This document shows, piece by piece, positions 1,328-47,318 of a stretch of DNA of 64,000 nucleotides. The stretch lies in the NCBI RefSeq assembly GCF_011058165.1, contig NZ_JAALEG010000007.1, positions 1 to 64,000 of the forward strand. Reading direction: 5' to 3'. The DNA comes from Rhodococcus aetherivorans. Lineage in GTDB: Bacteria > Actinomycetota > Actinomycetes > Mycobacteriales > Mycobacteriaceae. Position 1 is the first letter of the stretch, and the number at the start of each line of letters is the position of its first letter. The notes under the pieces were generated by a model. The model saw only the letters and a list, made by a program, of their open reading frames with translations. It was not told the origin of the DNA and did not search any database. The translations under genes were made by a program, and so were the position numbers.

Positions 1328-1344
1328 TCTCTTCCGCTCTCGGT

Positions 1345-4739: not shown

Positions 4740-4821
4740 GACGCCTGCCTTCCTCCGGCCGGGATGCCCCGGCGGCGGTGCGATGTTCTTCCGGTCATTC
4801 GTCGAACTCCTTGGTGCACAG

Positions 4822-4839
4822 GTGCGGAGCGATCCGCAC
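4822..4839. terminator. Short hairpin between binding-protein gene and livH
   Basis: The arms GTGCGGA and TCCGCAC are exact complements separated by GCGA, and the structure touches the stop codon of the upstream binding-protein gene. No T-run follows. It could stabilise the 3' end of the binding-protein message or cause partial termination before livHMGF; both are inferences. Confidence 0.4.
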
Positions 4840-6023
4840 TACTTCGCCGATTCCTGGTCGTCGATCAGCACTTCTTCCGTGCCGTTCCATTCCACGAGCA
4901 CGCCGTTGACGCGCATGTCGTTGCCTTCGAAGCGCACCGGGCCGAGCGCGCCGTCGAAGCCCTCGGCCACGACCTGCTCGAGGCCGCGCTGCAGGTCGTC
5001 GCGGGACGCACCGCCGGCGTTCTTGGCAGCGTGGGCGAGCATCCAGGTCGCGTCGTAGCCCTCGGCCGCGTAGTTGAGCGGATTCTCCCCGTTGTACTCG
5101 GCGCGGTACGCCTCGACGAACCGCTGCGAGGACTCGTCCTTCTGGTGGAAGCTGAAGTCGGTGGCCCAGTACATGCCCGCGCCCGCGGCACCGGCGGGTG
5201 CGAGGTTGCCCGCGCCGGCGGCGGGGTTGCCCACCACGGTGCCGGTGTAGCCGGCCTGGCGCAGCTGCGACATGGCCGTGGAGTTGCCGGCGCCGACGAG
5301 CAGGACGATGACCGCGTCGGGCTTCTCACCGGCGATCTTCGTTGCGGTGGTGCCGAAGTCCTGCGTGGTGGCCTGGACGGAGGTGCTCGACAGGATCCGG
5401 TAGCCGTACTTCTCCTGGCCCTCGGGGATGGTCTTCTCACCGAGTCCGGCGAGGGTGACGTTGCCCGCGTTGTAGAGCACGCTCACGGTCTTCACACCCT
5501 GCTGCTGCAGCCGCTCGAGCGCCTTGACGAAGTAGGTCTCCATCGGAGCCGTCGCGCGGTAGGTGTAGTCGCCGATGACGACGCCCTCGCTGCCGGACTG
5601 GGTGAAGATCGTCGGCAGCCCGGCCCGTTCCACGAGCGGGGCGATCGCGACGGCATGGGCGCTGAGCACTGGTCCGAGCAGGGCGCTGACACTCTTGTCG
5701 GTCAGCGTCTCGGTGGCCTGGCTGACCGCGGTCTGCGTATCGCTCGCCGAATCACGCTTCTGCAGAACGATCTTCGAGTCACCCAGGTAATTCTGCTCGT
5801 TGATCTCCTGGATCGCGAGTTCGATGCCCTTGAGCTGGCTGTTGCCGACGTACGCCGTGGTGCCGGTCTGGTCGGTCACGGAGACGACCTTGATCTCGGC
5901 CGGCAGGTCACCGTCGGCGACGGTGCCGTTTCCGCCGGAGCCGCAGGCGGCCGTGAACAGGACGCCGAACGCGCTCGCGGCTCCGAGCAGACGACGCCGG
6001 ACTTTCCGGTCGACTCGAGACAT
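4839..6023 (-). CDS. ABC transporter substrate-binding lipoprotein (LivJ/LivK type), copy 2
   Basis: A 394-residue binding protein with an arginine-rich signal peptide (VRRRLLGAAS, reminiscent of a Tat motif) and a lipobox ending at Cys27 (FTAAC). The body is a type I periplasmic-binding fold closely related to the copy at 164-1327 (shared EIKVVSVTDQTG and NYAAEGYDATWMLA segments). The ATG at 6023 is chosen because GGAAGG lies just upstream; the frame extends to 6056, but that would place the start inside an inverted repeat. It is the promoter-proximal gene of the liv unit. Ligand unknown. Confidence 0.9.
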   Translation of the reverse strand: MSRVDRKVRRRLLGAASAFGVLFTAACGSGGNGTVADGDLPAEIKVVSVTDQTGTTAYVGNSQLKGIELAIQEINEQNYLGDSKIVLQKRDSASDTQTAVSQATETLTDKSVSALLGPVLSAHAVAIAPLVERAGLPTIFTQSGSEGVVIGDYTYRATAPMETYFVKALERLQQQGVKTVSVLYNAGNVTLAGLGEKTIPEGQEKYGYRILSSTSVQATTQDFGTTATKIAGEKPDAVIVLLVGAGNSTAMSQLRQAGYTGTVVGNPAAGAGNLAPAGAAGAGMYWATDFSFHQKDESSQRFVEAYRAEYNGENPLNYAAEGYDATWMLAHAAKNAGGASRDDLQRGLEQVVAEGFDGALGPVRFEGNDMRVNGVLVEWNGTEEVLIDDQESAK

Positions 6024-6041
6024 GTGTGCACCTTCCGGTCG

Positions 6042-6057
6042 AATGATATGCATCATT
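6042..6057. promoter_or_regulatory. AT-rich inverted repeat upstream of liv unit (site 1)
   Basis: AATGAT-ATGC-ATCATT is an exact 6-base inverted repeat, AT-rich in a GC-rich setting, 19 bases upstream of the binding-protein start. The 16-mer at 6044-6059 matches the one at 8982-8997 at 14 of 16 positions. It is a candidate operator; the regulator is not evident. Confidence 0.5.
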
Positions 6058-15746: not shown

Positions 15747-17432
15747 TCAGGCGACCGGGGTTGCGGCCACCGATCGGGCCGGAAGCAGTCCTGCCCGGCC
15801 GTGCGCGACGAACTCGGCCTCGTAGCGGTCCCGCGCGTCCTCGCCGAACGGAACGTACTCGCTGGTTCGTCCCACCCGGACCAGGACCGGATCGTCGGTG
15901 CGCCACGCCGCGGACCGCAACGGCGCCTTGTTCACCTTGTTGCTGCCTGTCAACGGGATTCGCTCGACGATCCGCACGAACCGCGGCCACCACTTGTCGC
16001 CCATGTCCGGTTGCGCGGCGAGGAACGAACCGAACTGTCGCCCGTCCAGGTGCGCGCCGGGCGACAGTTCGAGTACACACATGACCTGGTCGCCGGTGAC
16101 CGGATCGGGCACCGCGAAGACCGGGGCGGACAGGACCGCCGGATGACGCTGCAGAATCCGTTCGATCGGTGCCGCGGAGAAGTTCTCGCTGTCGACCCGT
16201 AGCCAGTCGGAGGAGCGGCCGGCGAAGTAGAAGTACCCGTCGGCATCCCGGTATCCGAGATCCCCGGACCAGAAGTCGTCGCCCCGGACGCGGTCCGCCA
16301 TCGCCCCCGGGTTCTTGTAGTAGCCCTCGAACATGCCGGCAGCCCCCACCGCGACGATCTGCCCCACCGCCTCGGGGTTCGTCAGCCGGCCGGTGGCGTC
16401 GAACCGGGCGCGTGGGCATTCGTGTCCGGTCGCCTCGTCCAGGATCCGGACGTCGGCGTCGCCGGCGGGCAGGCCCAGCGAGCCCGGCGGAGTCCCGGGC
16501 GTGCGGTTGATCCGGAACACTCCCTCACTGAGGCCGTAACCCTCGATCACCGTGCAGCCGAATCGCTCGGCGAAACGCGCGACGTCGGCCTCGGAGGCCT
16601 CGGTGCCGAACGCCAGTTCCAGTGTGCCCGTCCGGTCCCGGGGATCCTCGGGCCGGCTCAGCACGTAGGACAGGGCCCGGCCGACGTAGTTGACGAACGT
16701 CGCGCCGTACCGGTGGATGTCGTCCCCGAAACGCGAGGCGGAGAACTTGCGGACCATCGCCACCGTGGCCCCCACGCGCATCGCCGTGCCCAGGTTGAGC
16801 ATGAGCGCATTGCCGTGGAACAAGGGCATGCACAGGTAGGCGACCGAGTCCCGGCGCATCTGTGTCCGGTCGACGAGAACGTCGATCAGCCGGCCGAGTC
16901 GCCCCTGGCCGACGACGACCGCCTTGGGCGCCCCGGTGGATCCCGAACTGAACAGCAGAAGGGCAAGTTGCTCAGGCGACGGTGTCGCGGCGGGCGGCTC
17001 CACGCCGCGGAACGGTGCGAGCAGTTCGGCGTAGGAGTCCGAGTCGACGTTCAGGATCCGCTCTTCCGCAAGGCCGTGCTCCTCACCGTGGACCAGGTGC
17101 GCGAGCCGGTTCTCGGTGAGGAGGAGGTCGACGTCCGCGTGGGCGATGTCGTGAGCGATCTCGGGCCCGCCGCGGCTGGCGTTGATTCCGACTACGACGG
17201 CGCCGGCGAGCGCCCCGGCTCCTATCCAGAACACGAAATCGGGCACGTTGTCCAGCAGGACCCCGACGTGGCGTTGCCGACCGGCCGGGGCGGTCACGAT
17301 CGACTCGAGAGCGGCTGCTCTACAGGCGCTTTCGGACACCACCTCGTCCCAGGTCCAGTCTCTCCCCTCGAAACGCAGTCCGACTTTCGGGTCGCCTCGC
17401 CGCGCGAGCAGCACGTCCGTGAATGTCTCCAC
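15747..17432 (-). CDS. Acyl-CoA ligase, FadD17-like
   Basis: A 561-residue member of the ANL family. The phosphate-binding loop LLLFSSGSTGAPKAV is near residue 160, YGLSEG near 300, the hinge region YFAGRSSDWLRVDSENFSAAPIE near 405, and the C-terminal catalytic lysine is in LTGSNKVNKAPLR. In Mycobacterium tuberculosis fadD17 lies next to fadE26-fadE27, and here the same trio is near one another, separated by IclR and a thioesterase remnant. It would activate a carboxylic acid as CoA thioester. It is divergent from the IclR gene across 233 bases. Confidence 0.85.
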   Translation of the reverse strand: METFTDVLLARRGDPKVGLRFEGRDWTWDEVVSESACRAAALESIVTAPAGRQRHVGVLLDNVPDFVFWIGAGALAGAVVVGINASRGGPEIAHDIAHADVDLLLTENRLAHLVHGEEHGLAEERILNVDSDSYAELLAPFRGVEPPAATPSPEQLALLLFSSGSTGAPKAVVVGQGRLGRLIDVLVDRTQMRRDSVAYLCMPLFHGNALMLNLGTAMRVGATVAMVRKFSASRFGDDIHRYGATFVNYVGRALSYVLSRPEDPRDRTGTLELAFGTEASEADVARFAERFGCTVIEGYGLSEGVFRINRTPGTPPGSLGLPAGDADVRILDEATGHECPRARFDATGRLTNPEAVGQIVAVGAAGMFEGYYKNPGAMADRVRGDDFWSGDLGYRDADGYFYFAGRSSDWLRVDSENFSAAPIERILQRHPAVLSAPVFAVPDPVTGDQVMCVLELSPGAHLDGRQFGSFLAAQPDMGDKWWPRFVRIVERIPLTGSNKVNKAPLRSAAWRTDDPVLVRVGRTSEYVPFGEDARDRYEAEFVAHGRAGLLPARSVAATPVA

Positions 17433-17665: not shown

Positions 17666-18499
17666 TTGACAGTGACGCGTAGTGACTCGATTCCGACGTC
17701 GGACATGCCGCGCGAGCAACGCCCCAGCGTGGCGGAACGGTTCACCCAGATCCTCGACGTGTTCGCATCCGGTCCCGACCGGATGTTCCTCGAGGAGATC
17801 ACGGCCGCCACCGGATTGCCACGCTCGACCGCCTTCCGCCTGCTCACCCAGCTCGTCGACCTTCACTGGGTCGAACACGACTCCCGCGGATACGGCCCCG
17901 GCCTGCGGATGCAGACGATGGCCCGACCCCGGGACTACTCGCAGCTGCGCGCCGCAGCCGCGGGGATGCTCAACGACCTGCAGATCGGCACCGGCGGAGT
18001 CGCGCACCTGACGGTGCTCGAAGGCTCGTCCGTCTATTTCCTCGACCGGATCGGGGGCACGGCGAGCGCGGGCATCCCCTCCCAGGTCGCGGCCCGGCTG
18101 CCGGCCGAGAGTACCGTCAGCGGACGGGCGCTGCTCGCCGGTCTCGAGCCGGAGAAGGTCGACGCCCTCATGACGGCCGGACCGCACGTACGGTCCCGGG
18201 CCGACCTGTCGACACTGCACGACCGTCTGAACCGGGTGCGCCAGCGGCAGGGTCTCGCGTTCGTGCCCGGCCACGCGTGCCCCATGTCCATCAGCGCGGT
18301 CGCCGCACCGGTCGTCGGTCCCGACGGCGTCGTGGGTGCGATCTCGGTGGCGTGCCGCGGAACGGTCGAACTCGCCCACATCGCACCGATGGTCTGGGCC
18401 ACCGCGCGCCGCACCTCGCGGTTGCTCACACCCGGCCGGCCCGGTTCCACCGCGCGGACCCGTCTGTCGCACCGAACGCACGTGGGTGTCGTGAACTAG
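17666..18499 (+). CDS. IclR family transcriptional regulator
   Basis: A 277-residue regulator with an N-terminal winged helix (SVAERFTQILDVFASG, then FLEEITAATGLPRSTAFRLL) and a C-terminal effector domain ending in GAISVACRG. A TTG start at 17666 is chosen because AGGAGG at 17653-17658 is seven bases away; a GTG two codons downstream would be too far. The C-terminal 35 residues (arginine-rich) extend past the usual family end. It probably controls the divergent fadD17-like gene. Confidence 0.88.
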   Translation: MTVTRSDSIPTSDMPREQRPSVAERFTQILDVFASGPDRMFLEEITAATGLPRSTAFRLLTQLVDLHWVEHDSRGYGPGLRMQTMARPRDYSQLRAAAAGMLNDLQIGTGGVAHLTVLEGSSVYFLDRIGGTASAGIPSQVAARLPAESTVSGRALLAGLEPEKVDALMTAGPHVRSRADLSTLHDRLNRVRQRQGLAFVPGHACPMSISAVAAPVVGPDGVVGAISVACRGTVELAHIAPMVWATARRTSRLLTPGRPGSTARTRLSHRTHVGVVN

Positions 18500-18577: not shown

Positions 18578-18963
18578 TCATTCCTCGACGCGGACGAACA
18601 CTCCCCGCGCCTCGACCGTGCACTCACCGCGGCATTCGATCCAACCCCCGGCGACGGTCTTCCGGCCCTCGATCTCGACGATCCGCGAATACAGATCCAG
18701 CGGCTCGTCGAGCGACGTGCGCCGCAGGTAGCGCAGGTCGAGCGACGCCGTCAGCGAACGACTGCCCCGTGCCTGCATGAGGATGCCGAGCATGCAGTCC
18801 AGCAGGTGAGCGCTGAACCCGCCGTGCACGCTGTCGGGCGGGCCCTCGTGCAGGGCGTTCGCGATCAGCCGGGCGCGCCTCGTCCGCGCCGAAGTGGATC
18901 TCGAGCGATCGCCCGGCCGGTGCCGCGGCTCGCGCCGGTGACGAGCTGCCCGGCGTTCGTCAT
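18578..18963 (-). pseudogene. SDR 5' end fused by deletion to frameshifted PaaI-like thioesterase
   Basis: The ATG at 18963 overlaps the upstream dehydrogenase stop (ATGA) and starts an SDR-like N-terminus with the cofactor motif TGASRGTGRAIA. The SDR sequence then stops, and the frame ends at 18865. In another frame the DNA continues with LEIHFGADEA and, after one more shift, with NALHEGPPDSVHGGFSAHL and a normal hotdog thioesterase C-terminus to the stop at 18578. So an SDR gene and the front of a thioesterase gene appear joined by a deletion, with an extra frameshift. Neither product should be functional unless the shift is a sequencing error. Confidence 0.7.
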
Positions 18964-20087
18964 GCGGGCGCCCCGATTCCTGGTGCGGATCCGAGGACGT
19001 CTCCCAGCTCGGCCGCGGTGGCGTCCGCACCGCCGAGGGTGAAGCACAATTGCCGTCCCCACAGGAAGTAGCGGTGGATCGGGTAGTCCACGTCCGCACC
19101 GATACCGCCGTGCAGGTGCTGCGTCGCGTGCACCACCCGCAGACCGCCGCGCGACGCCCACCATGTGGCGACGAGAACCGCGGATTCGGCCTCCTGCTCC
19201 CGTCCGGCGTCGAGCAGCCACGCCGCCCTCCGGGTGGTGAGCCGGATCGCCTCGGTGTCGAGGTAGGCGTCTGCGGCCCGCACCGCCACCGCCTGGTTGG
19301 TCGACAGCGGACGGTCGAATTGGATTCGCTGCGAGGTGTATTCGGCCGTCGTCTTCAGCGCCTGCCCGCACACGCCCAGCTGCACCGCGGCGAGCGCGAG
19401 CTGGATCCGGCGGCGCACCCAGGTGACCGTCTCCGCGCCGTCGCCCGGCAGGCGATCGGACGCGGGCACCACGACGTCGTCGAACCGGACGTGGGCGAGG
19501 CTGCCGCGGTCGGTTGCGGCGACCGGTTCCACCGTGACCCCGTCCGCCCCGGTCGGTATCACCGCGACGGCGAGCGACCCGTCGTCGCACCGGACCGGAA
19601 CGATCGTCGCGGCGGCCACGGCTGCGGCGGGCACACCGGCGACAGTTCCACTGACGACCAGGTCGTCGCCCTTGCTCACCGCCGACAGCGAGGTGAGTTC
19701 ACCGTAGGGCGCATCGAACGCCGCGACGACCGGTCGGGATCCGTCCACGATGCCGGGGACCAGGCGTTCGACCTGTTCGGCCGTGCCGAAACGGACGATC
19801 GCCGATGCGGCCGCCGTCACCGACCACAGCGGTACCGGCGCCACGTGCCGGCCCTGCTGTTCGAGCACCGTGATCAGGCCGAGCAGGCCCATCCCGGCGC
19901 CACCGGACTCCTCCGGCACCGCGATGCCGAGCAGACCGGCGTCGGCCAGGGCACTCCACAGCTTCGCGTCGAAGCCGCCCTCGTTCTTTTCCACCTCGAC
20001 AACCCGATCGACCGGCGCGAGCTGCCGGAAGAGCTGGGACGCCAGGTCCTGCACACTCGTCAGGTCGTCGTCTAGTTCGAAATCCAT
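18960..20087 (-). CDS. Acyl-CoA dehydrogenase, FadE27 (ChsE5)-like subunit
   Basis: A 375-residue acyl-CoA dehydrogenase-fold protein. The C-terminal region (YTSQRIQFDRPLSTNQAV, then HLHGGIGADVDYPIHRYFLW) is typical. It follows the FadE26-like gene with one base between. In M. tuberculosis FadE26-FadE27 form a heterotetrameric alpha2beta2 dehydrogenase acting on a cholesterol side-chain CoA thioester. The usual catalytic glutamate region (F/Y-E-G-T) is not visible in this chain, in line with a partner subunit role. Adjacent order and coupling support a two-subunit enzyme here. Confidence 0.85.
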   Translation of the reverse strand: MDFELDDDLTSVQDLASQLFRQLAPVDRVVEVEKNEGGFDAKLWSALADAGLLGIAVPEESGGAGMGLLGLITVLEQQGRHVAPVPLWSVTAAASAIVRFGTAEQVERLVPGIVDGSRPVVAAFDAPYGELTSLSAVSKGDDLVVSGTVAGVPAAAVAAATIVPVRCDDGSLAVAVIPTGADGVTVEPVAATDRGSLAHVRFDDVVVPASDRLPGDGAETVTWVRRRIQLALAAVQLGVCGQALKTTAEYTSQRIQFDRPLSTNQAVAVRAADAYLDTEAIRLTTRRAAWLLDAGREQEAESAVLVATWWASRGGLRVVHATQHLHGGIGADVDYPIHRYFLWGRQLCFTLGGADATAAELGDVLGSAPGIGAPA

Positions 20088-20088
20088 G

Positions 20089-21297
20089 TCAGCTCCTCGT
20101 GCTGGTGGGGGCGTCGGTGCGGCGACGGGCGGCGAGCGTCATGCCGAGGCACTTGGCGGCGACGATCTCGCGCATCACTTCATTGGTGCCGCCGCCGAAG
20201 GTGTTGTTCTGGGCTCTGCGCGCCAGGGTTTCGACGCGCCCCTCGAGGACGGCACCGGGGCTGCCGGGCCGGAGCAGACCCCGCACGCCGAGGATCTCCT
20301 GCATCTTGCCGTAGGCGGTGACGACCGCCTCGGTGCCGAAGATCTTCGCCGCCGCGGAATCACCGCCGCCGAGGGTGTTCGCGGCGACGTCCGCGACGAG
20401 CCGGAGGTTGACGAGGTCGGCGGCGCTGAGCAGCGCGTACGTCTCCGCCAGATTGGCGCGCACCCAGGGCAGGTCGTAGACCGTCCCGGCGCCCAGGGGC
20501 TCGGACTGTGCCCAGGCCAGGACGGCGTCGTACAACTCGTTCGCGATGCCACCGCGGGCGGCGAGCGCCACCCGCTCGTGGTTGAGCTGGTTGGTGATCA
20601 GGCCCCAGCCCTGGTTCAGCTCGCCGACGACGTTGGTCAGCGGCACGCGGACGTCGTCGTAGTAGGTGGCGGAGGTGCTGATGCCACCGACGGTGTGGAT
20701 CTCGGTCACCGAGAACCCGGCCGCCGACGTCGGTACCAGCACCACCGAGATGCCCTCGTGCCGCGGCGCGTCCGGATCGGTCCGGACGGCCAGCCAGATC
20801 CAGTCCGCGTAGACCCCGGCGCTGGTGAAGATCTTGTTGCCGTTGATGACCAGTTCGTCGCCCTCGATGCGGGCGCGGGTCTGCAACGAGGCGAGGTCGG
20901 TGCCCGCGTTCGGTTCGGTGTAGCCGATGGCGAAGATGAGTTCGCCCGCCAGGATCGGCGGTAGGAAGAAGTCCTTCTGCGCCTGGGTACCGTGCTTCAT
21001 CAGCGCCGGCGCGACGGTGTTGAGGGTGACGAGCGACAGCGGTGCGCCGGCGCGGATCACCTCGTCGTAGAACACGTACAGGGCCTCGGGATCCTCTCCC
21101 CGGCCGCCGTATTCGGTGGGCCAGCCGAGACCGAGCCACCCGTCGCGGCCCATCCGCCGCAGGATGCGGTCGAACACGGGACCGCCCTCGGTCTGGTCGA
21201 CGAGTGCGCGCCGGTCGTCGTCGTCGATGATCTCGGCGAAGTAGTTGCGCAGTTCGGTGCGGAGCCGACGTGAGTTGTCGGACAGTTCCGGGTGCAT
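20089..21297 (-). CDS. Acyl-CoA dehydrogenase, FadE26 (ChsE4)-like subunit
   Basis: A 402-residue acyl-CoA dehydrogenase with the FAD/substrate segment IGYTEPNAGTDLASLQTRA near residue 130 and the C-terminal NNTFGGGTNEVMREIVA. It is likely the catalytic partner of the FadE27-like protein just downstream. The length and the GGGTNEV motif match the FadE26/FadE28 group of the heteromeric dehydrogenases rather than the homotetrameric ones. It follows the FadE34-like gene by 32 bases on the same strand. Confidence 0.85.
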   Translation of the reverse strand: MHPELSDNSRRLRTELRNYFAEIIDDDDRRALVDQTEGGPVFDRILRRMGRDGWLGLGWPTEYGGRGEDPEALYVFYDEVIRAGAPLSLVTLNTVAPALMKHGTQAQKDFFLPPILAGELIFAIGYTEPNAGTDLASLQTRARIEGDELVINGNKIFTSAGVYADWIWLAVRTDPDAPRHEGISVVLVPTSAAGFSVTEIHTVGGISTSATYYDDVRVPLTNVVGELNQGWGLITNQLNHERVALAARGGIANELYDAVLAWAQSEPLGAGTVYDLPWVRANLAETYALLSAADLVNLRLVADVAANTLGGGDSAAAKIFGTEAVVTAYGKMQEILGVRGLLRPGSPGAVLEGRVETLARRAQNNTFGGGTNEVMREIVAAKCLGMTLAARRRTDAPTSTRS

Positions 21298-21329: not shown

Positions 21330-23531
21330 TCAGCGCGGCAGTCCCAGCACGCGACGGGCGATCACGTTGAGCTGGATCTCGATGGTGCCGCCGCCGAACA
21401 GCACCGCGGGCAGGCCGATGTGGTCGAGCATGTGGCCGTCGTCGTCGACGGCGCCGACCGGGCCGAGCAGCGAGACCAGCCCGCGCGAGCCGTCGCGTTG
21501 GGCGAGGGCGCTGAAGACCTTCTGGACGCTGATCTCCGCGCCGGCGTCGAGACCGGACAACCGTCGCAGCACGCTGCGCAGGTTCATCGCCGACAGGGCC
21601 ATCTCGCGGCCGGTGTTGCGGCCGAGGACGCGCAGCGCGTCGTCGCGGCCGGCGGCGTAGCGGCCCGACTCGACGAGGTCGCGCACCCGCGCGGCCGCGC
21701 CGTGCGCGAGCTGTGCGCCCATGCTGAGCCGTTCGTTGGCGAGCGTGGTCACCGCGAGGCGCCAGCCCTGCCCCCGTTCGGAGACCAGACAGTCGTCGGG
21801 GACGAAGACGTCGTCGAAGAACACCTCATTGAACTCCGCGCGCCCGGTCGCCTGCCGCAGCGGCCGCACGTCGAGCCCGTCGCTGCGCATGTCGACGAGG
21901 AAGTACGAGATGCCCTCGTGCCTGGGCACATCGGGATCGGTTCGGGCCAGGCAGATACCCCAATCCGCCTCGTGCGCCATCGAATTCCACACCTTCTGTC
22001 CGGTGAGGATCCAGCCGCCGTCCACCTTGCGGGCCCGGGTGGACAACCCGGCCAGGTCCGAGCCGGCGCCCGGTTCGCTGAACAACTGGCACCAGACGAT
22101 CTCGCCGCGCAGGGTGGGCGCGACGAAGCGGCGCTGCTGGTCCTCGCTGCCGTGCAGCAGCAGGGTGGGCAGGGCCCACTCGCCGATGACGGTGGTCGGC
22201 TGTTCGAGGCCGCGGCGCGCGAATTCGTCCGCGATCACGGCCTGCTCCTGCGGTCCGGCGGCCAGCCCGTACGGCCGGGGATAGTGCGGCGCGACGAGAC
22301 CGGCCTCGGCGAGGCGGGCGCGACGTGCCCCGCCTCGCGCCGGAGCCCATCCGTCGCTGTGCACCGCGTCGTCCGGCAGTGCCCGTACCTCGTCGAGGAC
22401 GGCGCCGACCTGCGCGCGCAGCTCGGGTAGCGCATCGGCCTCGACGAAGGAGAAGTCGCGCTCGTCCGACAGTGCGAGCTCACCGAGCCGGCGTGCCCAG
22501 ACGTCCTCCGGGCCGGCGACGGAGGCGATCGACAGTGCCCGTCGCCAGTACAGGTGCGCGTCGTGTTCCCAGGTGAAGCCGAGACCGCCGAGCAGGGTGA
22601 CGCATTCGAGCGCCACGTCGACGGCCGCCGGCACTGCCGTCAGTCCTGCCTGCGCCGCCGCGAGCCGCTGCTGCTCCCGGCCCTGCTGCACCGACCGGGC
22701 CGCGTCCCACGCTGCGGCACAGGCGATCTCGCTACGCACCAGCATCATCGCAGCCTTGTGCTGCACGGCCTGGAAGCTGCCCACCGGGCGGCCGAACTGG
22801 TGCCGGTTGCGGACGTGGTCCACGGCGGTGTCCAGCGCCCACGCCGCAAGCCCGGCCGCCTCGGCGCCGAGCACGGTGTTGACGATCAGCTGCACGTCGT
22901 CGTCGTCGATCGCCGGGAGCAGGTGCTCGGGCGTGATCGCCGCTCCGGACAGTCGCAGTCGTCCCACCGAGCGGGTGGGGTCCACGCCGTCGGCGAGCTC
23001 GACCTCTCCGGCCGCGGGCGGGAGCCGGAACCACACGGGCGCGCCGTCGGCGGTGGCGCGCACGATCACCTCGTCGGCGCCGGGCAACCCGAGCACCGGC
23101 TCGGAGACACCGGTGACCGTCCATCCCCGCCCCGACGTGATCGCGACGAGACCGGGGGTGGTGACGGCGGCACCGGTCGCTCCGTCGGCGAACCGCCGCA
23201 GCAACTCCGCCGCGGTGCCCTCGGCCGGGAGGGTGGCGGTCAGCGCGCCGGCCACGACGGTGGGCACCCATGGCCCGGGTACCAGGGCGCGGCCGAGCTG
23301 CTCGGCCACGACCGCGAGTTCCGGCAGTCCCGCCCCACCGCCGCCGTGCTCCTCGGGCAGGTGCAGGGCGTGCAGGCCCTGCGCGATGCACGCATCCCAG
23401 ATCTCGGGCCGCTTGCCCGCCGCCAGGTCGGCGAACGCGGCGCGGGTGCGTTCGATCGGGGCATGGCGACGGGCGAGGCCCGCGACGGAGTCGGCAAGGT
23501 CGCGATGGTCGGCGTCGAGTGCAATGGCCAT
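21330..23531 (-). CDS. Two-domain acyl-CoA dehydrogenase, FadE34/CasC-like
   Basis: A 733-residue protein made of two acyl-CoA dehydrogenase units: residues about 1-360 (ending FTWEHDAHLYWRRAL) and about 395-733 (SEPGAGSDLAGLSTRARKVDGGW, then LFGGGTIEIQLNVIARRVLGLP). The fused double-domain plan is that of FadE34 (ChsE3) and of CasC, dehydrogenases for C5 side chains of sterols and bile acids. The ATG at 23531 lies three bases after the thiolase stop. This is good evidence for side-chain beta-oxidation, though the actual substrate is not fixed. Confidence 0.85.
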   Translation of the reverse strand: MAIALDADHRDLADSVAGLARRHAPIERTRAAFADLAAGKRPEIWDACIAQGLHALHLPEEHGGGGAGLPELAVVAEQLGRALVPGPWVPTVVAGALTATLPAEGTAAELLRRFADGATGAAVTTPGLVAITSGRGWTVTGVSEPVLGLPGADEVIVRATADGAPVWFRLPPAAGEVELADGVDPTRSVGRLRLSGAAITPEHLLPAIDDDDVQLIVNTVLGAEAAGLAAWALDTAVDHVRNRHQFGRPVGSFQAVQHKAAMMLVRSEIACAAAWDAARSVQQGREQQRLAAAQAGLTAVPAAVDVALECVTLLGGLGFTWEHDAHLYWRRALSIASVAGPEDVWARRLGELALSDERDFSFVEADALPELRAQVGAVLDEVRALPDDAVHSDGWAPARGGARRARLAEAGLVAPHYPRPYGLAAGPQEQAVIADEFARRGLEQPTTVIGEWALPTLLLHGSEDQQRRFVAPTLRGEIVWCQLFSEPGAGSDLAGLSTRARKVDGGWILTGQKVWNSMAHEADWGICLARTDPDVPRHEGISYFLVDMRSDGLDVRPLRQATGRAEFNEVFFDDVFVPDDCLVSERGQGWRLAVTTLANERLSMGAQLAHGAAARVRDLVESGRYAAGRDDALRVLGRNTGREMALSAMNLRSVLRRLSGLDAGAEISVQKVFSALAQRDGSRGLVSLLGPVGAVDDDGHMLDHIGLPAVLFGGGTIEIQLNVIARRVLGLPR

Positions 23532-23534
23532 GAC

Positions 23535-24671
23535 TTACATCCGTTCCAGAATCATGCACGTGGTGGCAGCCGACGCGCAGATGGCGATCATCGCGACCTG
23601 CCGGTCCCGGCGTTCGAGTTCGTCGATCGCGGTGGCCAGCAGCCGGATTCCGGTGGCGCCGGCCGGGTGACCGAGGGCGATGGCACCGCCGCCGACGTTG
23701 AGCACGTCCGGGTCGACCTTGTGCACCTGGGCGAACGACATCGGCACGGCCGCGAAGGCTTCGTTGACCTCGAACAGGTCCACGTCGGCGACCGTCATCC
23801 CGGTGCGGTCGAACAGCACCTGCGCCGCGGCCACCGGGCCGTCGAGCATGAACTCGGTGTCGCCGCCGATGACGCACTGCGCGAGCAGCCGGGCCCGCGG
23901 CGCCGCACCGAGTTCACGTGCCCTGTCCTCGGACATCAGGACCGCGGCGCTCGCCCCGTCGGACACCTGCGACGAGGTGCCGGCGGTATGGAGACCGCCC
24001 TCGATCGTGGCACGCAACCGCGCGAGCGCCTCCATGCCGGTCTCGCGCAGTCCCTGGTCCCGGGTGACCGTGGTGTCGCCGTCGTCGCTCGGGACGGCGA
24101 CGGGGATGATCTGCCGGTCGAACCACCCGGCGTCCCAGGCGTCGCGCGCCCGCTGCTGCGACCGCAGGCCGAACGCGTCGAGGTCCTCGCGGGAGAAGCC
24201 GCGGTGCCGGGCGATGCGATCGGCCGCCGTGTACTGGTCGGGGGTGTCCACCGACCACGACGCCGGCCGCGGGGTGCCGGCGCCGGTGCCGACCTTGTAG
24301 GTGAGCGGGACCCGCGACATCAGTTCGACGCCGCACGCCAGGCCGACCTCGAGGGTGCCGAGCGCGATCTGCCCGGCGACGAGATGCACCGCCTGCAGCG
24401 CGGTGCCGCACTGGGCGTCGATGGTGGTGGTCCCGGTGTGGGACGGCAGGCCGGCGTGCATCCACGCGGTGCGGGTGATGTTGCCGAACTGCTCCCCGAT
24501 CGGGGTGACACACCCGCCGACGGCCTGCTCGACGAGGGTGGCATCGAGGTCGAGCCGGTCGAGCACGCCGCGTTGCGCGAGACCGAGCAGCTCGGCGGCG
24601 TGCAGACCGGAGATCCAGCCGTCGCGCTTGCCGAAGGGGGTGCGTGCGGCGTCGACGATCACGGGCTTCAT
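23535..24671 (-). CDS. Thiolase (acetyl-CoA acyltransferase-like) with atypical C-terminal motif
   Basis: A 378-residue thiolase. The nucleophile is Cys88 (TIDAQCGTALQA), followed by FEVNEAFAAVPM and the histidine motif GGGAIALGHPAGATG. The last motif reads ICASAATTCMILERM where related enzymes usually have C-x-G-G-G-x-G, so the second cysteine remains but the glycine loop is changed. The ATG at 24671 overlaps the stop of a 41-residue ORF as ATGA. It would cleave a beta-ketoacyl-CoA in the side-chain pathway. The altered loop may reflect a bulky substrate. Confidence 0.88.
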   Translation of the reverse strand: MKPVIVDAARTPFGKRDGWISGLHAAELLGLAQRGVLDRLDLDATLVEQAVGGCVTPIGEQFGNITRTAWMHAGLPSHTGTTTIDAQCGTALQAVHLVAGQIALGTLEVGLACGVELMSRVPLTYKVGTGAGTPRPASWSVDTPDQYTAADRIARHRGFSREDLDAFGLRSQQRARDAWDAGWFDRQIIPVAVPSDDGDTTVTRDQGLRETGMEALARLRATIEGGLHTAGTSSQVSDGASAAVLMSEDRARELGAAPRARLLAQCVIGGDTEFMLDGPVAAAQVLFDRTGMTVADVDLFEVNEAFAAVPMSFAQVHKVDPDVLNVGGGAIALGHPAGATGIRLLATAIDELERRDRQVAMIAICASAATTCMILERM

Positions 24672-24793
24672 GCGGGCACCTGCACCCGGGTCCACTGCCG
24701 ATTGTCGAGCCCGCGGACCTCGCGCCCGAATTCGTCGACGAGGCCGAGGCTGTCGCAGATGCGGCCGGTGAAACGAGACGGCACGGCGGTCAC
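24668..24793 (-). CDS. Small ORF of 41 residues coupled to DegT and thiolase genes
   Basis: From a GTG at 24793 to a TGA at 24668. The start overlaps the DegT stop as GTGA and the stop overlaps the thiolase start as ATGA, the same junctions as between the real genes of this operon. GGAGG lies only just upstream, inside the DegT 3' end. The product (VTAVPSRFTGRICDSLGLVD at the start, RQWTRVQVPA at the end) has no recognised family, one cysteine and no membrane segment. It could be a real small subunit, or a remnant of a longer gene kept for coupling. Confidence 0.5.
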   Translation of the reverse strand: MTAVPSRFTGRICDSLGLVDEFGREVRGLDNRQWTRVQVPA

Positions 24794-25995
24794 CTCCACT
24801 TCGCGGCGAAGGCGTGGATCGCGTCGGTCACGCGGGTGACCTCCTCGTCGGACAGCCCGTGGCTCATGCCGAGCGTCATGCCGCGCTCGAACACCGCATC
24901 GGCCTCGGGCAGGCCTTCGTCCGGCACGCGGTGCTCGACGCCCGCCATCATCGGGTGGCGGGTGATGTTGCCGCTCCACACGGTTCGCGTGTCGATGCCC
25001 TGCGCGTCGACGAATTCCTGCAGGTCGCTACGGGAGAACGGGGCGTCGGCGGTGACCGTGACGGGATAGCACAACCAGGCAGTGTCGAGTTCGTCGGTCT
25101 CCACCGGCGTGCTGAAGAACTCGGGGTAGGCGCCGTACGCGGCGGTGAACTCCGCGAAGGTCTTGCGGCGCCGCTCGTAGTTCTGCGCGAGCTTGTTCAG
25201 CTGCACGACACCGTAGGCGGCGCCGAGTTCGGACGGCTCGAAGTTCCACGGCAGCAGGTCGAAGATGAAGTCGTTGTCGTAGTCGACCCCGTCCAGATCC
25301 TCCCGGAAGACGCGTCCACGTCCGTTGCCGAACAGGTTCGGCTCGGATCGACGTCCCCACCGGCGCAGCAGGAGTGCGCGATCGCGGGTCTGCTCGTCGT
25401 CCATCATGACCATGCCGCCGGTGCCGGCACACGTGATGATGTGGGCCATGGAGAAGCTGGTGACGGTCAGGTCGGCGCGCGCGCCGGTGGGCGTGCCGCG
25501 CAGCCGGGCGCCGAGGGTGTCGCAGGTGTCCTCGATCACCTTCAGGTCGTGCCGGTCGGCGACGGCCCGGATCGCGTCCCAGTCCGGGCAGTTGCCGGCG
25601 AGGTTCGGGATGAGCACGGCGCGGGTCCGGTCGGTGACCATCGCCTCGATCCTGGTGACGTCGACGTTGAACGTGTTCGGTTCGACGTCGACGAAGACCG
25701 GTATCAGGCCGGCGCGCACGAGGGGCGCGACGTCGGTGGAGAAGGTCAGCGGCGAGGTGATGACTTCGCTGCCCTTCGGCAGATCGAGCAGCTCGACCGC
25801 GAGGTACAGGCCGGAGGATCCGGAGTTGCACATCACGCCGTACTGTTTCCCGGACAGCTCGGGGATGCGGCGTTCGAGCTCGAGGACGTTCTTGCCGATG
25901 CGCAGCCCCTGATGGCCGCTGCGCAGGACGTCGACCACCGCTCGGATTTCGTCCTCGCCGTGGGTGGCGCGGGCATAGGTGATGCGTTCGGTCAT
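24790..25995 (-). CDS. DegT/RfbH-like PLP enzyme lacking the Schiff-base lysine
   Basis: A 401-residue fold-type I PLP protein of the DegT/DnrJ/EryC1/StrS family. The expected lysine motif S-F-x-x-x-K reads SFSMAHIITCAGTGG, putting His185 in its place. The Asp that binds the pyridine nitrogen is in IEDTCDTLGARL (Asp156), like the IEDNCDALG of RfbH/ColD sugar 3-dehydratases, which also carry His for Lys. The iron-sulphur cysteines of RfbH are absent, which fits a ColD-like mechanism. It sits inside a beta-oxidation operon, an unexpected place for a sugar enzyme. GAGGAAG precedes the ATG. Function inferred: PLP-dependent dehydration, not transamination. Confidence 0.8.
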   Translation of the reverse strand: MTERITYARATHGEDEIRAVVDVLRSGHQGLRIGKNVLELERRIPELSGKQYGVMCNSGSSGLYLAVELLDLPKGSEVITSPLTFSTDVAPLVRAGLIPVFVDVEPNTFNVDVTRIEAMVTDRTRAVLIPNLAGNCPDWDAIRAVADRHDLKVIEDTCDTLGARLRGTPTGARADLTVTSFSMAHIITCAGTGGMVMMDDEQTRDRALLLRRWGRRSEPNLFGNGRGRVFREDLDGVDYDNDFIFDLLPWNFEPSELGAAYGVVQLNKLAQNYERRRKTFAEFTAAYGAYPEFFSTPVETDELDTAWLCYPVTVTADAPFSRSDLQEFVDAQGIDTRTVWSGNITRHPMMAGVEHRVPDEGLPEADAVFERGMTLGMSHGLSDEEVTRVTDAIHAFAAKWR

Positions 25996-26024: not shown

Positions 26025-27224
26025 TCAGTTGTCGGTGGAGAGCACGAGTGCGCTGTGCGGCACCGGGGAGCCGCCCGTGACCAGAACGTTCGCCACGTCC
26101 TTGCCGGGCTGGTTCACCGACGTGCCGCGGATCAGCCGCACGCCCTCGGCGATTCCGTTGACGCCGTGGATGTATCCCTCGCCGAGTTGTCCGCCGTGGG
26201 TGTTGACGGGCAGACGGCCGTCGAGTTCGAGGTTGCCGTCCGCGATGAAGTCCTTGGCCTCACCGCGGGCGCAGAACCCGTACTCCTCGAGTTGCAGCAG
26301 CACCATCGGGGTGAACGCGTCGTAGAGGATTGCGGCGTCGATGTCGTCCGGATCGATGCCGGCCTGATCCCACAGCTGCCGTGCCACCAGCTCGACCTCG
26401 GGCATCTCGTCGATGTCCTCGCGGTAGTAGCTGCTCATGGAGATCTGCTGCGGCCCGACGCCTTGCGCGGCGGCGGAGACGACGGCCGGCGGGTGCGGCA
26501 GGTCGCGGGCCCGCTCGGTGCTGACGATCACCAGGGCCTGTCCGCCGTCGCTCTCCTGGCAGCAGTCGAGCAGCCGCAGCGGGTCGGCGATCATCCGGGA
26601 GTTCTGGTGCTCGTCGAGGGTGATGGGCCGCTCGTAGAACCATGCCTTGGGGTTGTTTGCGGCATGCTTGCGCGACAGCACGGAGACGCGGCCGAAGTCG
26701 GCGCTGGTCGCGCCGTACTTGTGCATGTAGCGCCGGGCGAGGAACGCCTCCTGCTGGGCGGGGGTGAGCAGCCCGTAGGGATTGATCCAGTTGCGGTATT
26801 CCTGATCGGTGTTGGCCGTGTAGGCGAACGGCGGCGGGCCGGCGCCGAACCGGGTGCCGGAACGTTCGTTGAAGGCCCGGTAGACGACCACGACGTCGGC
26901 GACACCGCTCGCGACGGCGAGCGCCGCCTGCTGCACGGGTGCGCATGCGCCGCCGCCGCCGTGCGGGATGCGGCTGAAGAACGTCAGTTCGGGGATGCCG
27001 AGTGCGCGGGCGACCGCGATCTCGGGGTTGGTCTCCATCGTGAACAGCGCGAAGCCGTCCACCTCCTCGACGCCGATCTGTGCATCCTCGAGCGCGGCGA
27101 GCACACTCTCGCAGGCCAGTTGCCATTCGCTGCGCCCGGAGTTCTTGGAGAATTCGGTGGCGCCGATGCCGGCGATCGCCGCCCTGCGGGCGAAGCCCCC
27201 GCCGGGAATTATCCTGCCGCTCAT
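26025..27224 (-). CDS. Ltp2-like thiolase-fold retro-aldol lyase
   Basis: A 399-residue thiolase-superfamily (SCP-x/lipid-transfer) protein. Tyr301 lies in ILYDAFTP and Tyr351 in LGEGYIHG; the 50-residue spacing equals that of the two catalytic tyrosines (294 and 344) described for steroid aldolase Ltp2. No thiolase nucleophile motif is evident. Ltp2 works in complex with the DUF35 part of ChsH2 to cleave a 22-hydroxy side chain by retro-aldol reaction, releasing propionyl-CoA. A DUF35 protein and ChsH1-like hydratase are encoded just upstream, with ATGA overlap, as in the igr operon. Confidence 0.88.
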   Translation of the reverse strand: MSGRIIPGGGFARRAAIAGIGATEFSKNSGRSEWQLACESVLAALEDAQIGVEEVDGFALFTMETNPEIAVARALGIPELTFFSRIPHGGGGACAPVQQAALAVASGVADVVVVYRAFNERSGTRFGAGPPPFAYTANTDQEYRNWINPYGLLTPAQQEAFLARRYMHKYGATSADFGRVSVLSRKHAANNPKAWFYERPITLDEHQNSRMIADPLRLLDCCQESDGGQALVIVSTERARDLPHPPAVVSAAAQGVGPQQISMSSYYREDIDEMPEVELVARQLWDQAGIDPDDIDAAILYDAFTPMVLLQLEEYGFCARGEAKDFIADGNLELDGRLPVNTHGGQLGEGYIHGVNGIAEGVRLIRGTSVNQPGKDVANVLVTGGSPVPHSALVLSTDN

Positions 27225-27631
27225 CGTGTCTGTCCTTCGTACGGTGCGACGGTGACCTCGGCGGTCACGTGCGTTCCTCGGGCGTTACGGCCGAGAACCT
27301 CGACGGTCACGGCGCCGGCGTCGACGCGGGTCACCGTCCCGGTCAGGCGCATGATGTCGCCGGGAAAGTTGGGGACGCCCAGCCGCAGTGCGACGCGGCG
27401 GATGCGGGCGGTCGGCCCGGCCCAGTCGGTGATGTAGCGGTCGACGAACCCGTTCGTCGAGTTGATGCTCATGAAGATGTCCGGCGTGCCGCGTTTTTCG
27501 GCTGCCCCCGGATCGTGGTGCACGTCCTCGAAGTCCTGGGAGGCGAGGGCGGTGGCGACGATGGTGCTGCGATCGAGCGGCAGATCCAGTGCCGGCAGCT
27601 CGGTGCCGACGACGACCGGTGGCAGACTCAT
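27221..27631 (-). CDS. MaoC-like enoyl-CoA hydratase subunit, ChsH1-like
   Basis: A 136-residue hotdog protein. Asp33 and His38 (SQDFEDVHHDP) have the D-x4-H spacing of the hydratase-2 catalytic dyad. Short length and position (between the DUF35 protein and the Ltp2-like enzyme) match ChsH1, which pairs with the MaoC half of ChsH2 to hydrate the steroid enoyl-CoA. Both ends overlap the neighbours as ATGA. It should supply the catalytic residues, since the partner MaoC protein lacks the histidine. Confidence 0.85.
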   Translation of the reverse strand: MSLPPVVVGTELPALDLPLDRSTIVATALASQDFEDVHHDPGAAEKRGTPDIFMSINSTNGFVDRYITDWAGPTARIRRVALRLGVPNFPGDIMRLTGTVTRVDAGAVTVEVLGRNARGTHVTAEVTVAPYEGQTR

Positions 27632-28038
27632 GCGGCACCCCCGCCCGGAAGGCGCAGCTGCGGAAGGATTTCGCCGTGTGCGTGCTCGGCGAAGCCGACC
27701 TCGAGCTCCATCCCGATCTGCAGCCGGTCGTGCTCGACCCCGGCGATGTCGGCGACGATCCGGATGCCCTCCTCGAGGTCGATCAGCCCGACCGCGAGGG
27801 GATAGTCGAAGGACGGGTCCTTCGGGTGGTGGATCACGGTCCAGCTGTGCAGGGTGCCGCGGCGCGACGACTCGACGGTGTCCCACTTGAAGGAGCGGCA
27901 CTTCGGGCACGCCGGTCCCGGCGGATGCCGGAGCGCGCCGCAGTCGCTGCAGCGCTGGATCTCGAGCCGGCCCTCGCGGGCGGCTGCGAACCAGAACTCG
28001 TTGTCCTGGGTGACGGTCAACCTGGGAACGGCCGTCAT
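27628..28038 (-). CDS. DUF35/OB-fold zinc-ribbon protein (ChsH2 C-terminal-like)
   Basis: A 136-residue protein with a rubredoxin-like zinc ribbon at Cys30, Cys33, Cys44 and Cys47 (CSDCGALRHPPGPACPKC) followed by an OB fold. In ChsH2 of M. tuberculosis this domain is fused behind a MaoC domain and docks to Ltp2. Here it is a separate gene with its own ATG, overlapping the upstream MaoC stop as TGATG. The protein is complete and well conserved at both ends, so the split is not a frameshift. It probably forms the aldolase complex with the Ltp2-like protein. Confidence 0.88.
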   Translation of the reverse strand: MTAVPRLTVTQDNEFWFAAAREGRLEIQRCSDCGALRHPPGPACPKCRSFKWDTVESSRRGTLHSWTVIHHPKDPSFDYPLAVGLIDLEEGIRIVADIAGVEHDRLQIGMELEVGFAEHAHGEILPQLRLPGGGAA

Positions 28039-28601
28039 CACGCCTCCTCGGTGGTGTTCGGGTTGAAGCGGAGCAATCGGAACCGCTCCTCGACGAGCAG
28101 TTCGCCATGCTGGTTCTCGTAGCGTTTGTGCAGGGTGACGAAGCAGCCGCGGCCCAGGCCGGTGTGCTTGACCGGGGAGATCGACTCGATGGTGAAGTGC
28201 GCGGTGACGTGGTCGCCCGGGACGAGTTCGCGGTGATAGTCCTGCTCGGCGTTGGTGGCGACGACGGAGGTGAAACCGTGCCGGTCCAGCAGTGTCATCA
28301 GCGCGGAGTAGGCGAAGTCCTCGGTCCGTCCTTCGGCGCGCAGCCGCTGCACCTCGCGCCAGCGGCGGTAGCCGGCCATCACCCACGTCGAGATCATCGC
28401 GGGCGGGCACACCACGTCCGGTCGTCCGGTCGCGCGGGCCGCGTCCCGGTCGACGTAGACGGGGTTGTAGTCGTCGTGGGCCTCGACCCAGTTCCGGATC
28501 ATCGCCTCGTCGACGGCGTACCGGGCCACCCGGGCGGGCTCGGCCACCTTCCCGACGTACTGTTCGAACTCGCGTTCCAACTCCTGTTCCAGCGTCGGCA
28601 T
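28038..28601 (-). CDS. MaoC/FAS1-type hotdog protein (ChsH2 N-terminal-like)
   Basis: A 187-residue hotdog protein of the MaoC N-terminal type (RNWVEAHDDYNPVYVDRDAA). The position of the catalytic histidine is Tyr49, five residues after Asp44, so it is likely a non-catalytic partner. It is the first gene of the long left operon and is divergent from the KstR2-like regulator. The ATG at 28601 is chosen over one eight codons upstream because AAAGGTGG precedes it. With ChsH1-like protein it would make a two-subunit enoyl-CoA hydratase. Confidence 0.82.
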   Translation of the reverse strand: MPTLEQELEREFEQYVGKVAEPARVARYAVDEAMIRNWVEAHDDYNPVYVDRDAARATGRPDVVCPPAMISTWVMAGYRRWREVQRLRAEGRTEDFAYSALMTLLDRHGFTSVVATNAEQDYHRELVPGDHVTAHFTIESISPVKHTGLGRGCFVTLHKRYENQHGELLVEERFRLLRFNPNTTEEA

Positions 28602-28634: not shown

Positions 28635-28741
28635 GCAGTACGGTAGGCGCGGGCGCCCCGCCAGGACTGCCCACTCCCACTCAGTTGGAACAGAGGGCGG
28701 AAGACTCGCGCCGAACCGGCGAATCGGAAGGTGAGGTGACC

Positions 28742-29317
28742 ATGACGTCGGACCGACGCGACGAGATCATGCGGCTCGCGGCCGAACTCTTCGCAACCAA
28801 GGGGATCGGGCCGACGACGGTCCGCGACATCGGCGAACGCGCCGGAGTGTTCTCCGGCAGCCTGTACCACTTCTTCAGATCCAAGAATGCACTCGTCGCC
28901 GAGATCCTCAGCGGCTTCATGGCCGACATCGACCAGCGCTTCCGGCGCGTCGTGGAGATCTCGACGAGTCCCCGCGAGACTGTGCGCGGCCTGATCCACC
29001 AGACCCTCGTCGTGATCGAGGAGCATCCCCATCCGACGGCGATCTACCAGCAGAACCGGCAGTACCTGCGCGACAACGGCCTGCTCGACGTCGTCGACGC
29101 ACCGTCGCGCACGGTGCGCGACTATTGGCTGACCACGATCGCCACCGGCGTCGCCGACGGCAGCTTCCGCTCCGACATCCCCGCCGAGGTCTTCTACCGC
29201 ACGGTGCGGGACGCGCTGTGGGCGAGCATGCACTGGCCGGGACGGGACGGATACACCACCGACGAGTTCACCGACGTGCTCGTTGCGCTGTTCTTCGGCG
29301 GTTTCGCCGAGGAGTGA
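28742..29317 (+). CDS. TetR-family regulator, KstR2-like
   Basis: A 191-residue TetR regulator. The helix-turn-helix GIGPTTVRDIGERAGVFSGSLYHFFRSKNALVAEIL (shortened in sense) closely resembles KstR2, the repressor of genes for sterol rings C/D breakdown that responds to a CoA thioester (HIP-CoA). The ATG at 28742 follows GAAGGTGAGG; the frame opens at 28685 without support. A perfect KstR2-type operator lies in the divergent region. It likely represses the left operon and perhaps itself. Whether the effector is a HIP-CoA-like compound is not known. Confidence 0.85.
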   Translation: MTSDRRDEIMRLAAELFATKGIGPTTVRDIGERAGVFSGSLYHFFRSKNALVAEILSGFMADIDQRFRRVVEISTSPRETVRGLIHQTLVVIEEHPHPTAIYQQNRQYLRDNGLLDVVDAPSRTVRDYWLTTIATGVADGSFRSDIPAEVFYRTVRDALWASMHWPGRDGYTTDEFTDVLVALFFGGFAEE

Positions 29318-47194: not shown

Positions 47195-47318
47195 GGGATC
47201 CCCTTCGCTCGTGACGCCGTCCGTGCGATTCATACCGCGTTCCCGGGCCGGGCCGGGGGCAAACGACGGTCCGGCTCGTGCGGTTAGACTCACCGCCACT
47301 GCGGACGGGGGGCGAACG

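Follow-up and report, generated by a model that had tools for sequence, protein, structure and literature searches.

The window, a stretch of 64,000 nucleotides of Rhodococcus aetherivorans (contig NZ_JAALEG010000007.1, positions 1 to 64,000), carries on its minus strand an operon of the steroid side-chain type that includes a gene for a DegT-fold protein of 401 amino acids (24790..25995, minus strand, an open reading frame (ORF) with an ATG start). Along this strand the genes follow in the order MaoC, DUF35, MaoC, Ltp2, DegT, thiolase, a fused acyl-CoA dehydrogenase and two more acyl-CoA dehydrogenases. In the DegT protein His185 replaces the lysine that binds pyridoxal 5'-phosphate (PLP), and the protein is proposed to be a dehydratase of alpha-hydroxyketones that depends on pyridoxamine 5'-phosphate (PMP). 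The finding is real and recurrent.

The DegT protein matches PF01041 (DegT_DnrJ_EryC1) at 265.3 bits, against a gathering score of 19.8, and it is the sole strong match to this model in its genome, the other nine scoring 20-30 bits and each covering at most half of the model. Its best family model is that of RfbH (NCBIfam NF011936), which it matches at 255.3 bits without reaching the cut-off of 423. The motif SFSMAHIIT starts at residue 180, which places the histidine at residue 185, and IEDTCDTLG starts at residue 154, which makes Asp156 the conserved aspartate of the pyridine nitrogen. A sequence-only reading of this DNA had proposed both assignments, together with the absence of the RfbH iron-sulphur (Fe-S) cysteines, and had named a structure-based alignment as the check. 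All three claims were confirmed. In the alignments, His185 falls on the histidine of E1, the RfbH-type cytidine diphosphate (CDP)-6-deoxy-L-threo-D-glycero-4-hexulose-3-dehydrase (3bcx), and on the lysine of 3bb8, an entry titled as the H220K mutant; in the structure comparison E1 comes nearest to the predicted fold; and WGRRSEPNLFGN occupies the place of the cysteine-rich stretch of E1, the four [2Fe-2S] cysteines of RfbH/E1 not being present. The lysines of the protein lie at residues 35, 50, 74, 152, 268, 278 and 399, and the Schiff-base lysine of sugar aminotransferases, found in 7/7 aminotransferase rows of the alignment, is missing.

When an 84,980-species collection was scanned with this protein alone, 73 loci were obtained; 65 of them (L039-L103) are 44.7-96% identical to the query and form the family, the eight distant hits (L104-L111) not being counted as members. 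Histidine stands at position 185 in 65/65 loci, so that a lysine elsewhere serving as the internal aldimine, the case set against the histidine assignment, did not appear. The stretch 208-231 is free of cysteine in all 65 loci, and aspartate is found at position 156 in 64 of them, the remaining one reading X. The labels A, B and C used for the loci below were given by identity and context. Group counts leave out the fragments L098 and L101 and place L097 in group D and L063 in group B; on this basis the histidine is present in 29/29 rows of group A (where some rows are near-duplicates and two are identical), 8/8 of B, 35/35 of C, 6/6 of D (mostly in a CDP-sugar context) and 6/6 of the cysteine-bearing E1-like rows. 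Asp156, N343 and R346 are shared by 84/84 dehydratase-type rows, while L63, L69, S81, D88, L128, D205, R212, R216, E218, G223, F252, G333 and W340, among others, occur in at least 90% of the A, B and C rows and in none of the D or E1-like rows. Alignment A2 comprises 38 rows chosen among the 65 loci, with L088 and L090 excluded as their range ran over a stop codon. Genes in the fetched loci were called with simple ORF, GC or codon-usage scripts rather than a trained gene finder, and many of their labels were assigned by eye or by tblastn with proteins of the window or of genome G538.

In a maximum-likelihood tree built without nine near-duplicates (L039, L055, L056, L057, L058, L059, L060, L100 and L102), groups A-D are split from the E1-like rows at 100/99 and group A forms one side of a branch at 100/99. 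The tree leaves the base order of the C and D lines unsettled, B and C need two changes each, and some aminotransferase rows sit on long branches. Groups A-D include plasmid-borne relatives from Leisingera, Roseibium and Palleronia, 45-49% identical to the window protein, which lie directly after rfbF and rfbG and before a methyltransferase and an NAD(P)-dependent oxidoreductase, and which have the dehydratase histidine and no cysteine motif. Together with a Sinorhizobium protein, these Alphaproteobacterial relatives (L113-L115, L117 and L118) fall on the side of the 100/99 branch that holds the window protein; they differ from it in their rfbF-rfbG-methyltransferase context, seen in three annotated records, and in lacking R212, R216, E218, G223 and W340. 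Judged by that context, these proteins, which carry aminotransferase annotations, are probably ColD-like 3-dehydratases of CDP-sugars. The E1 lineage thus has a branch free of Fe-S, with probable CDP-sugar members as well as catabolic ones, and the missing cluster is not special to the steroid operon, because these relatives following rfbF-rfbG lack the cysteines as well. A further clade-C copy, in a metagenome-assembled genome labelled Bifidobacterium breve (L080), groups with lake Acidimicrobiia, and the label is probably wrong.

The genes around DegT, all on the minus strand, identify the operon. The Ltp2-like steroid side-chain aldolase (26025..27224) scores 654.7 against a cut-off of 469 with the lipid-transfer protein model PRK07855, and the steroid 3-ketoacyl-CoA thiolase (23535..24671) scores 577.6 against 515 with the equivalog model PRK07850. 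On the other side of Ltp2 lie a MaoC-like hydratase subunit that is ChsH1-like by position (27221..27631; PF01575, E 2.4e-5, 24.4 bits, below the gathering score of 27), a DUF35 protein with zf-ChsH2 and OB_ChsH2_C domains (27628..28041) and a MaoC-type hydratase subunit matching FAS1_DH_region (28038..28601). The thiolase is followed by a fused two-domain acyl-CoA dehydrogenase of 733 amino acids (21330..23531), which is 43% identical to one beside an Ltp2 operon on contig C216 of the same genome, and by two acyl-CoA dehydrogenases that are paired subunits, ChsE-like by position (20089..21297 and 18960..20087). The gene set of the steroid side-chain (Ltp2) operon, comprising Ltp2, DUF35, the MaoC subunits and the paired acyl-CoA dehydrogenases, is complete here, and the two curated cut-offs together with the zf-ChsH2 and OB_ChsH2_C domains bear out the earlier description as a sterol-type beta-oxidation operon. 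The suggestion that DegT is translationally locked between its neighbours did not hold, since the gene starts 29 nt past the Ltp2 stop, ends 118 nt before the thiolase ATG at 24671 (94 nt with the upstream GTG at 24695) and overlaps neither. The same gene set is found in the igr-type Ltp2/ChsH1/ChsH2/ChsE1-ChsE2 side-chain module and in the actinobacterial cholate cluster; unlike the known module, the operon has DegT added to it, and in most relatives also a short-chain dehydrogenase (SDR). Two further Ltp2-MaoC-DUF35-dehydrogenase operons are present in the same genome on contigs C179 and C216 (L143 and L144), with Ltp2 proteins 66-67% identical, and near the second stands a TetR gene that we take to resemble KstR.

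The pairing of DegT with Ltp2 is constant among close relatives. A neighbourhood search for histidine-type DegT genes beside ltp2, suggested by the sequence-only reading, found Ltp2 directly upstream of DegT in 25/25 clade-A loci. Among 401 genomes of the bacterial family, 23 have a DegT of at least 77% identity, and in 23/23 an Ltp2 of at least 86% identity precedes it by 32-87 nt, measured between matched ends, so that a chance insertion, which would have left the pair confined to this genome, did not appear. Conversely, there are 31 such Ltp2 genes in 30 genomes, and 8/31 have no DegT after them. One genome, Rhodococcus gordoniae (G015; L012 and L040), has both kinds of operon, and in its DegT-less copy Ltp2 is 92% identical and the neighbours are KshA-, HsaA-, HsaB-, HsaC- and HsaD-like. 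DegT thus seems to have been added to a side-chain module of known type, since among close relatives it trails Ltp2, yet Ltp2 occurs without it. In an Acidimicrobiales locus (L076), an Ltp2-MaoC-DUF35-dehydrogenase set lies 3-7 kb from DegT on the other strand.

In the gap between DegT and the thiolase (24672..24789, minus strand) lies what is left of a lost SDR gene, about 37 codons in frame that match the C-terminus of the SDR found at this place in relatives. One frame of the gap scores 123, 107, 77, 76, 66 and 62 against six SDRs, for which the maxima of 300 shuffles are 39-43; the best score, 123, was obtained against the SDR of Rhodococcus HNM0569, where the best of 300 shuffles reached 39. 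The remaining frame pairs score at most 76, with shuffles of up to 70. Since the matching frame lies well above its shuffles, most of the SDR gene has evidently been deleted in the window, and a similar remnant, judged by eye, is present in R. ruber. In 21/25 clade-A loci DegT has an SDR gene no more than 41 nt downstream, and the same SDR subfamily occurs near DegT outside Ltp2 operons in 8/38 clade-C loci: it lies 3-35 nt downstream of DegT in L090-L095 (41-43%) and upstream in L096 (65 nt; 44%) and L068 (533 nt; 62.5%). It also adjoins DegT in L154 and L155 (62-63%), with a 4-nt overlap in the former and no gap in the latter. The recurrence of the pair suggests a role for the SDR in either providing or consuming the ketone. 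An obligatory partnership was not borne out, as the SDR gene is deleted in the window, does not adjoin DegT in L039, L040, L045 and L050, and was not found beside DegT in 30/38 clade-C loci. SDRs of the same genome that resemble the lost one are 28-40% identical to it.

The catalytic residues and the operon together point to a function. We consider it likely that DegT has dehydratase chemistry, and slightly more likely still that its substrate is a steroid; the joint proposal, of a PMP-dependent enzyme of the ColD type that belongs to the lineage of nucleotide-sugar 3-dehydratases and dehydrates an alpha-hydroxy-ketosteroid in steroid catabolism, is on balance probable. Of the earlier proposal of a PLP-dependent deoxygenation of a steroid- or isoprenoid-related intermediate, the histidine-bearing E1/ColD-type enzyme and its place in a steroid side-chain operon have stood, while the chemistry and substrate are deduced. 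According to PMC8987622, the histidine that replaces the aminotransferase lysine in ColD and E1 takes the cofactor proton, which leads to loss of the 3-hydroxyl beside the 4-ketone; in ColD the enamine is then hydrolysed and PMP is restored with glutamate, whereas E1 relies on Fe-S electron transfer. As the window protein combines the histidine with the lack of an Fe-S cluster, the ColD route is its natural reading, and the substrate should therefore be an alpha-hydroxyketone. Like ColD (the guanosine diphosphate (GDP)-4-keto-6-deoxy-D-mannose-3-dehydratase; 2gms, 3b8x, 2r0t and 3gr9), DegT has histidine for lysine and no Fe-S cluster, but it is only about 25-27% identical to that enzyme and lies in a side-chain operon, while the substrate of ColD is a GDP-sugar. 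It shares with E1/RfbH the fold, a near full-length alignment, the histidine and the GN..R motif, and differs in lacking the [2Fe-2S] cysteines, in being 30-32% identical over the structures and below the RfbH cut-off, and in lying in a steroid operon rather than an rfbF-rfbG or O-antigen cluster. No counterpart of the E3 reductase partner of E1 was noticed in the operon of the window, the genome not having been searched for one.

On the ColD model, PMP would condense with the ketone of the steroid, His185 would abstract the C4' proton as the hydroxyl on the adjacent carbon leaves, and the resulting PLP-enamine would be hydrolysed to the deoxygenated ketone and ammonia. PMP would then be regenerated by L-glutamate, the use of which is assumed by analogy, and neither a [2Fe-2S] cluster nor an E3-type reductase would be required. 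The product of Ltp2-type cleavage is a 17-ketone; the ketone might come from the Ltp2 retro-aldol reaction, with a 16-hydroxyl then removed, or from the SDR that most close relatives have as a partner of DegT. For Ltp2-type enzymes, PMC8399759 describes retro-aldol removal of propionyl-CoA from a C17-hydroxylated intermediate, giving C19 steroids. A 16-hydroxy-17-ketone is our first guess, because C16 is the free alpha-carbon of the 17-ketone, and 2-hydroxy-3-keto and 6-hydroxy-7-keto steroids or side-chain ketols may serve instead. A ring position seems to be favoured by two clade-B loci that have ring genes in a stretch where Ltp2 was not found.

Several observations tie the DegT genomes to steroid ring degradation. 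Among 31 entries picked by choice rather than every DegT-positive genome, KshA (PF19298) reaches E ≤2e-86 in 22/22 of clade A (one genome being entered twice) and in 5/5 of clade B within the family; three Acidimicrobiales-type genomes give only weak matches (E 1e-22 to 1e-27), and it is absent in Dactylosporangium (L063); its base rate in the class is 54/394 genomes at E ≤1e-70. Nine of the 22 clade-A entries belong to Nocardioides, Geodermatophilaceae, Actinomadura and Streptosporangium, which we take to lie outside the order of the window, and common descent as the explanation of the co-occurrence is thereby weakened, not removed. In G538, about 29 kb separate the operon (DegT at 616708) from KshA, and the interval contains HsaA-D- and KstD-like genes, all below their equivalog cut-offs: HsaC 356.6 with TIGR03213 and 333.7 with the HsaC model (450), HsaA 385.8 (450), HsaD 281.5 (400), HsaB 187.2 (230) and 3-oxosteroid 1-dehydrogenase 667.7 (788). 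In clade B, KshA- and KstD2-like genes lie within about 4 kb of DegT in G572, and HsaD-, HsaC-, HsaA- and KshA-like genes within about 20 kb in G039. One result weighs against the link: of six genomes of the class with DegT at E ≤1e-100, three at 55-58% identity (G180, G311 and G415) are not KshA-positive. The ten other clade-B loci examined show no ring gene nearby. Ring genes as regular neighbours of DegT were not borne out, being found at only 2/25 clade-A, 2/38 clade-C and 2/12 clade-B loci, with clear cases in G538, G039 and G572.

Other functions were weighed against the steroid dehydratase. One is that the operon serves the breakdown of a glycoside of a steroid or triterpene, with DegT, as a nucleotide-sugar or glycoside-acting 3-dehydratase, deoxygenating the sugar; this would suit the Fe-S-cysteine-free relatives after rfbF and rfbG and the best family model, RfbH, although 255 bits stands against a cut-off of 423. 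We regard it as unlikely: no nucleotide-sugar, glycosyltransferase or glycosidase gene was identified when genes of the operon were compared with Pfam or NCBIfam (the genome was not searched for one), which also leaves the earlier option of a sugar attached to the steroid unsupported; the epimerase-family gene at 46193-47620 is 20 kb away; and residues such as R212, R216, E218, G223, F252, W340, D88 and S81 mark more than 90% of the catabolic rows and no CDP-sugar or E1-like row. A deoxygenation in the side chain, in which the SDR would make a 22-ketone, DegT would remove the 20-hydroxyl of the 20-hydroxy-22-ketone (as from ecdysteroid-type 20,22-diols) and the thiolase would cleave, is equally doubtful. 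The usual order Ltp2-DegT-SDR-thiolase in relatives fits it, as do the fused acyl-CoA dehydrogenase and steroid thiolase downstream in most clade-A loci, but the clade-B DegT genes of G039 and G572 sit with ring genes, no Ltp2 having been found in those stretches, in G034 no such thiolase or fused dehydrogenase was found within about 20 kb, and in L040 these genes lie about 5-9 kb upstream on the opposite strand.

The loss of the Schiff-base lysine, and the ability of SpnQ to transaminate without its reductase (described in PMC8987622), would allow a lysine-independent transaminase or a relative of DegT aminotransferases that has lost catalysis and acts in regulation; this is improbable, given that the histidine is invariant down to 45% identity, that Asp156, N343 and R346 are retained throughout the dehydratase-type rows and that the SDR pairing occurs in more than one clade. 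An operon for another terpenoid or for an isoprenoid with a ribose-derived polyol chain (bacteriohopanepolyol), from which DegT would take hydroxyls, a chemistry that would suit a polyol, was raised by the clade-C copy in 'Candidatus Hopanoidivorans cymbastelae' (L079), but it is kept only as a highly improbable rival, since no side-chain operon lies within 10 kb of DegT in that locus, the KshA_C matches of its genome are all weak, clade A is tied to steroid-type enzymes, and a literature search found nothing on 'Candidatus Hopanoidivorans' or a hopanoid-degradation pathway of this kind.

Further genes flank the operon. A TetR-family regulator (28685..29317, plus strand) is divergent from it, and an IclR-family regulator (17666..18499, plus strand) and an AMP-binding acyl-CoA synthetase (15747..17432, minus strand), which is kept near the operon in several relatives, lie beyond its end. 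After the last acyl-CoA dehydrogenase, at 18578-18965 on the minus strand, a thioesterase-like gene lacks the N-terminal part present in R. ruber (L039); the hot-dog thioesterase remainder, labelled PaaI-type by eye, spans 18578..18910 with an arbitrary start, and ahead of it in another frame lies a short SDR-like start, MTNAGQLVTGASRGTGRAIA, an arrangement that resembles a deletion join. At 164-6056 (minus strand) the window also contains an ATP-binding cassette importer region with two Peripla_BP_6-type substrate-binding proteins and permease-like genes. Outside clade A, recurring SDRs and an aldo/keto reductase surround clade-B and some clade-C DegT genes (L065, L119, L167 and L096); the clade-B sets also have VOC proteins and a luciferase-like monooxygenase. 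These labels were mostly assigned by eye, those of the VOC and luciferase-like proteins being confirmed for L065. Amidohydrolase_2-type proteins, assigned by Pfam in L073 and by clustering or eye in L078, L083, L099, L100, L120 and L155, occur with other oxidoreductases near further clade-B and clade-C DegT genes.

Searches of open-licence literature on cholesterol and other steroids, diosgenin and sapogenins, 16-hydroxy compounds, dehydroxylation, ecdysone and cholate clusters gave, among the papers listed, no link between DegT and steroid catabolism by title, abstract or term count, which is weak evidence of absence; the term 'degt' was counted 0 times among the steroid-degradation matches listed. 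The accessible parts of the bile-acid review PMC8399759 do not mention the DegT and SDR of this operon ('degt' 0 times), and those of PMC5348764 contain nothing on it. DegT probably removes a steroid hydroxyl that neighbours a ketone, a step not found in the open-licence literature searched. The gene is easily overlooked, because relatives of it are annotated as DegT aminotransferases.

To conclude, DegT may be a PMP-dependent steroid alpha-ketol dehydratase that, with a cognate SDR, removes ring hydroxyls beside a ketone in a glutamate-driven reaction and feeds steroids with vicinal oxygens (such as 16-oxygenated bile acids or sapogenins, or 6,7-diol bile acids) into the ordinary pathway in Rhodococcus, Nocardioides and Geodermatophilus, with Acidimicrobiia relatives acting on other ring-type substrates; in this full form we hold the proposal to be evenly balanced. 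For nucleotide sugars, PMP enzymes that deoxygenate the carbon beside a ketone are already described (PMC8987622). If the proposal is true, unreactive ring hydroxyls would be removed without radicals or an Fe-S cluster by a dedicated and widely kept enzyme, which could account for the breakdown of vicinally oxygenated steroids and would be a biocatalyst with which steroids could be deoxygenated selectively.
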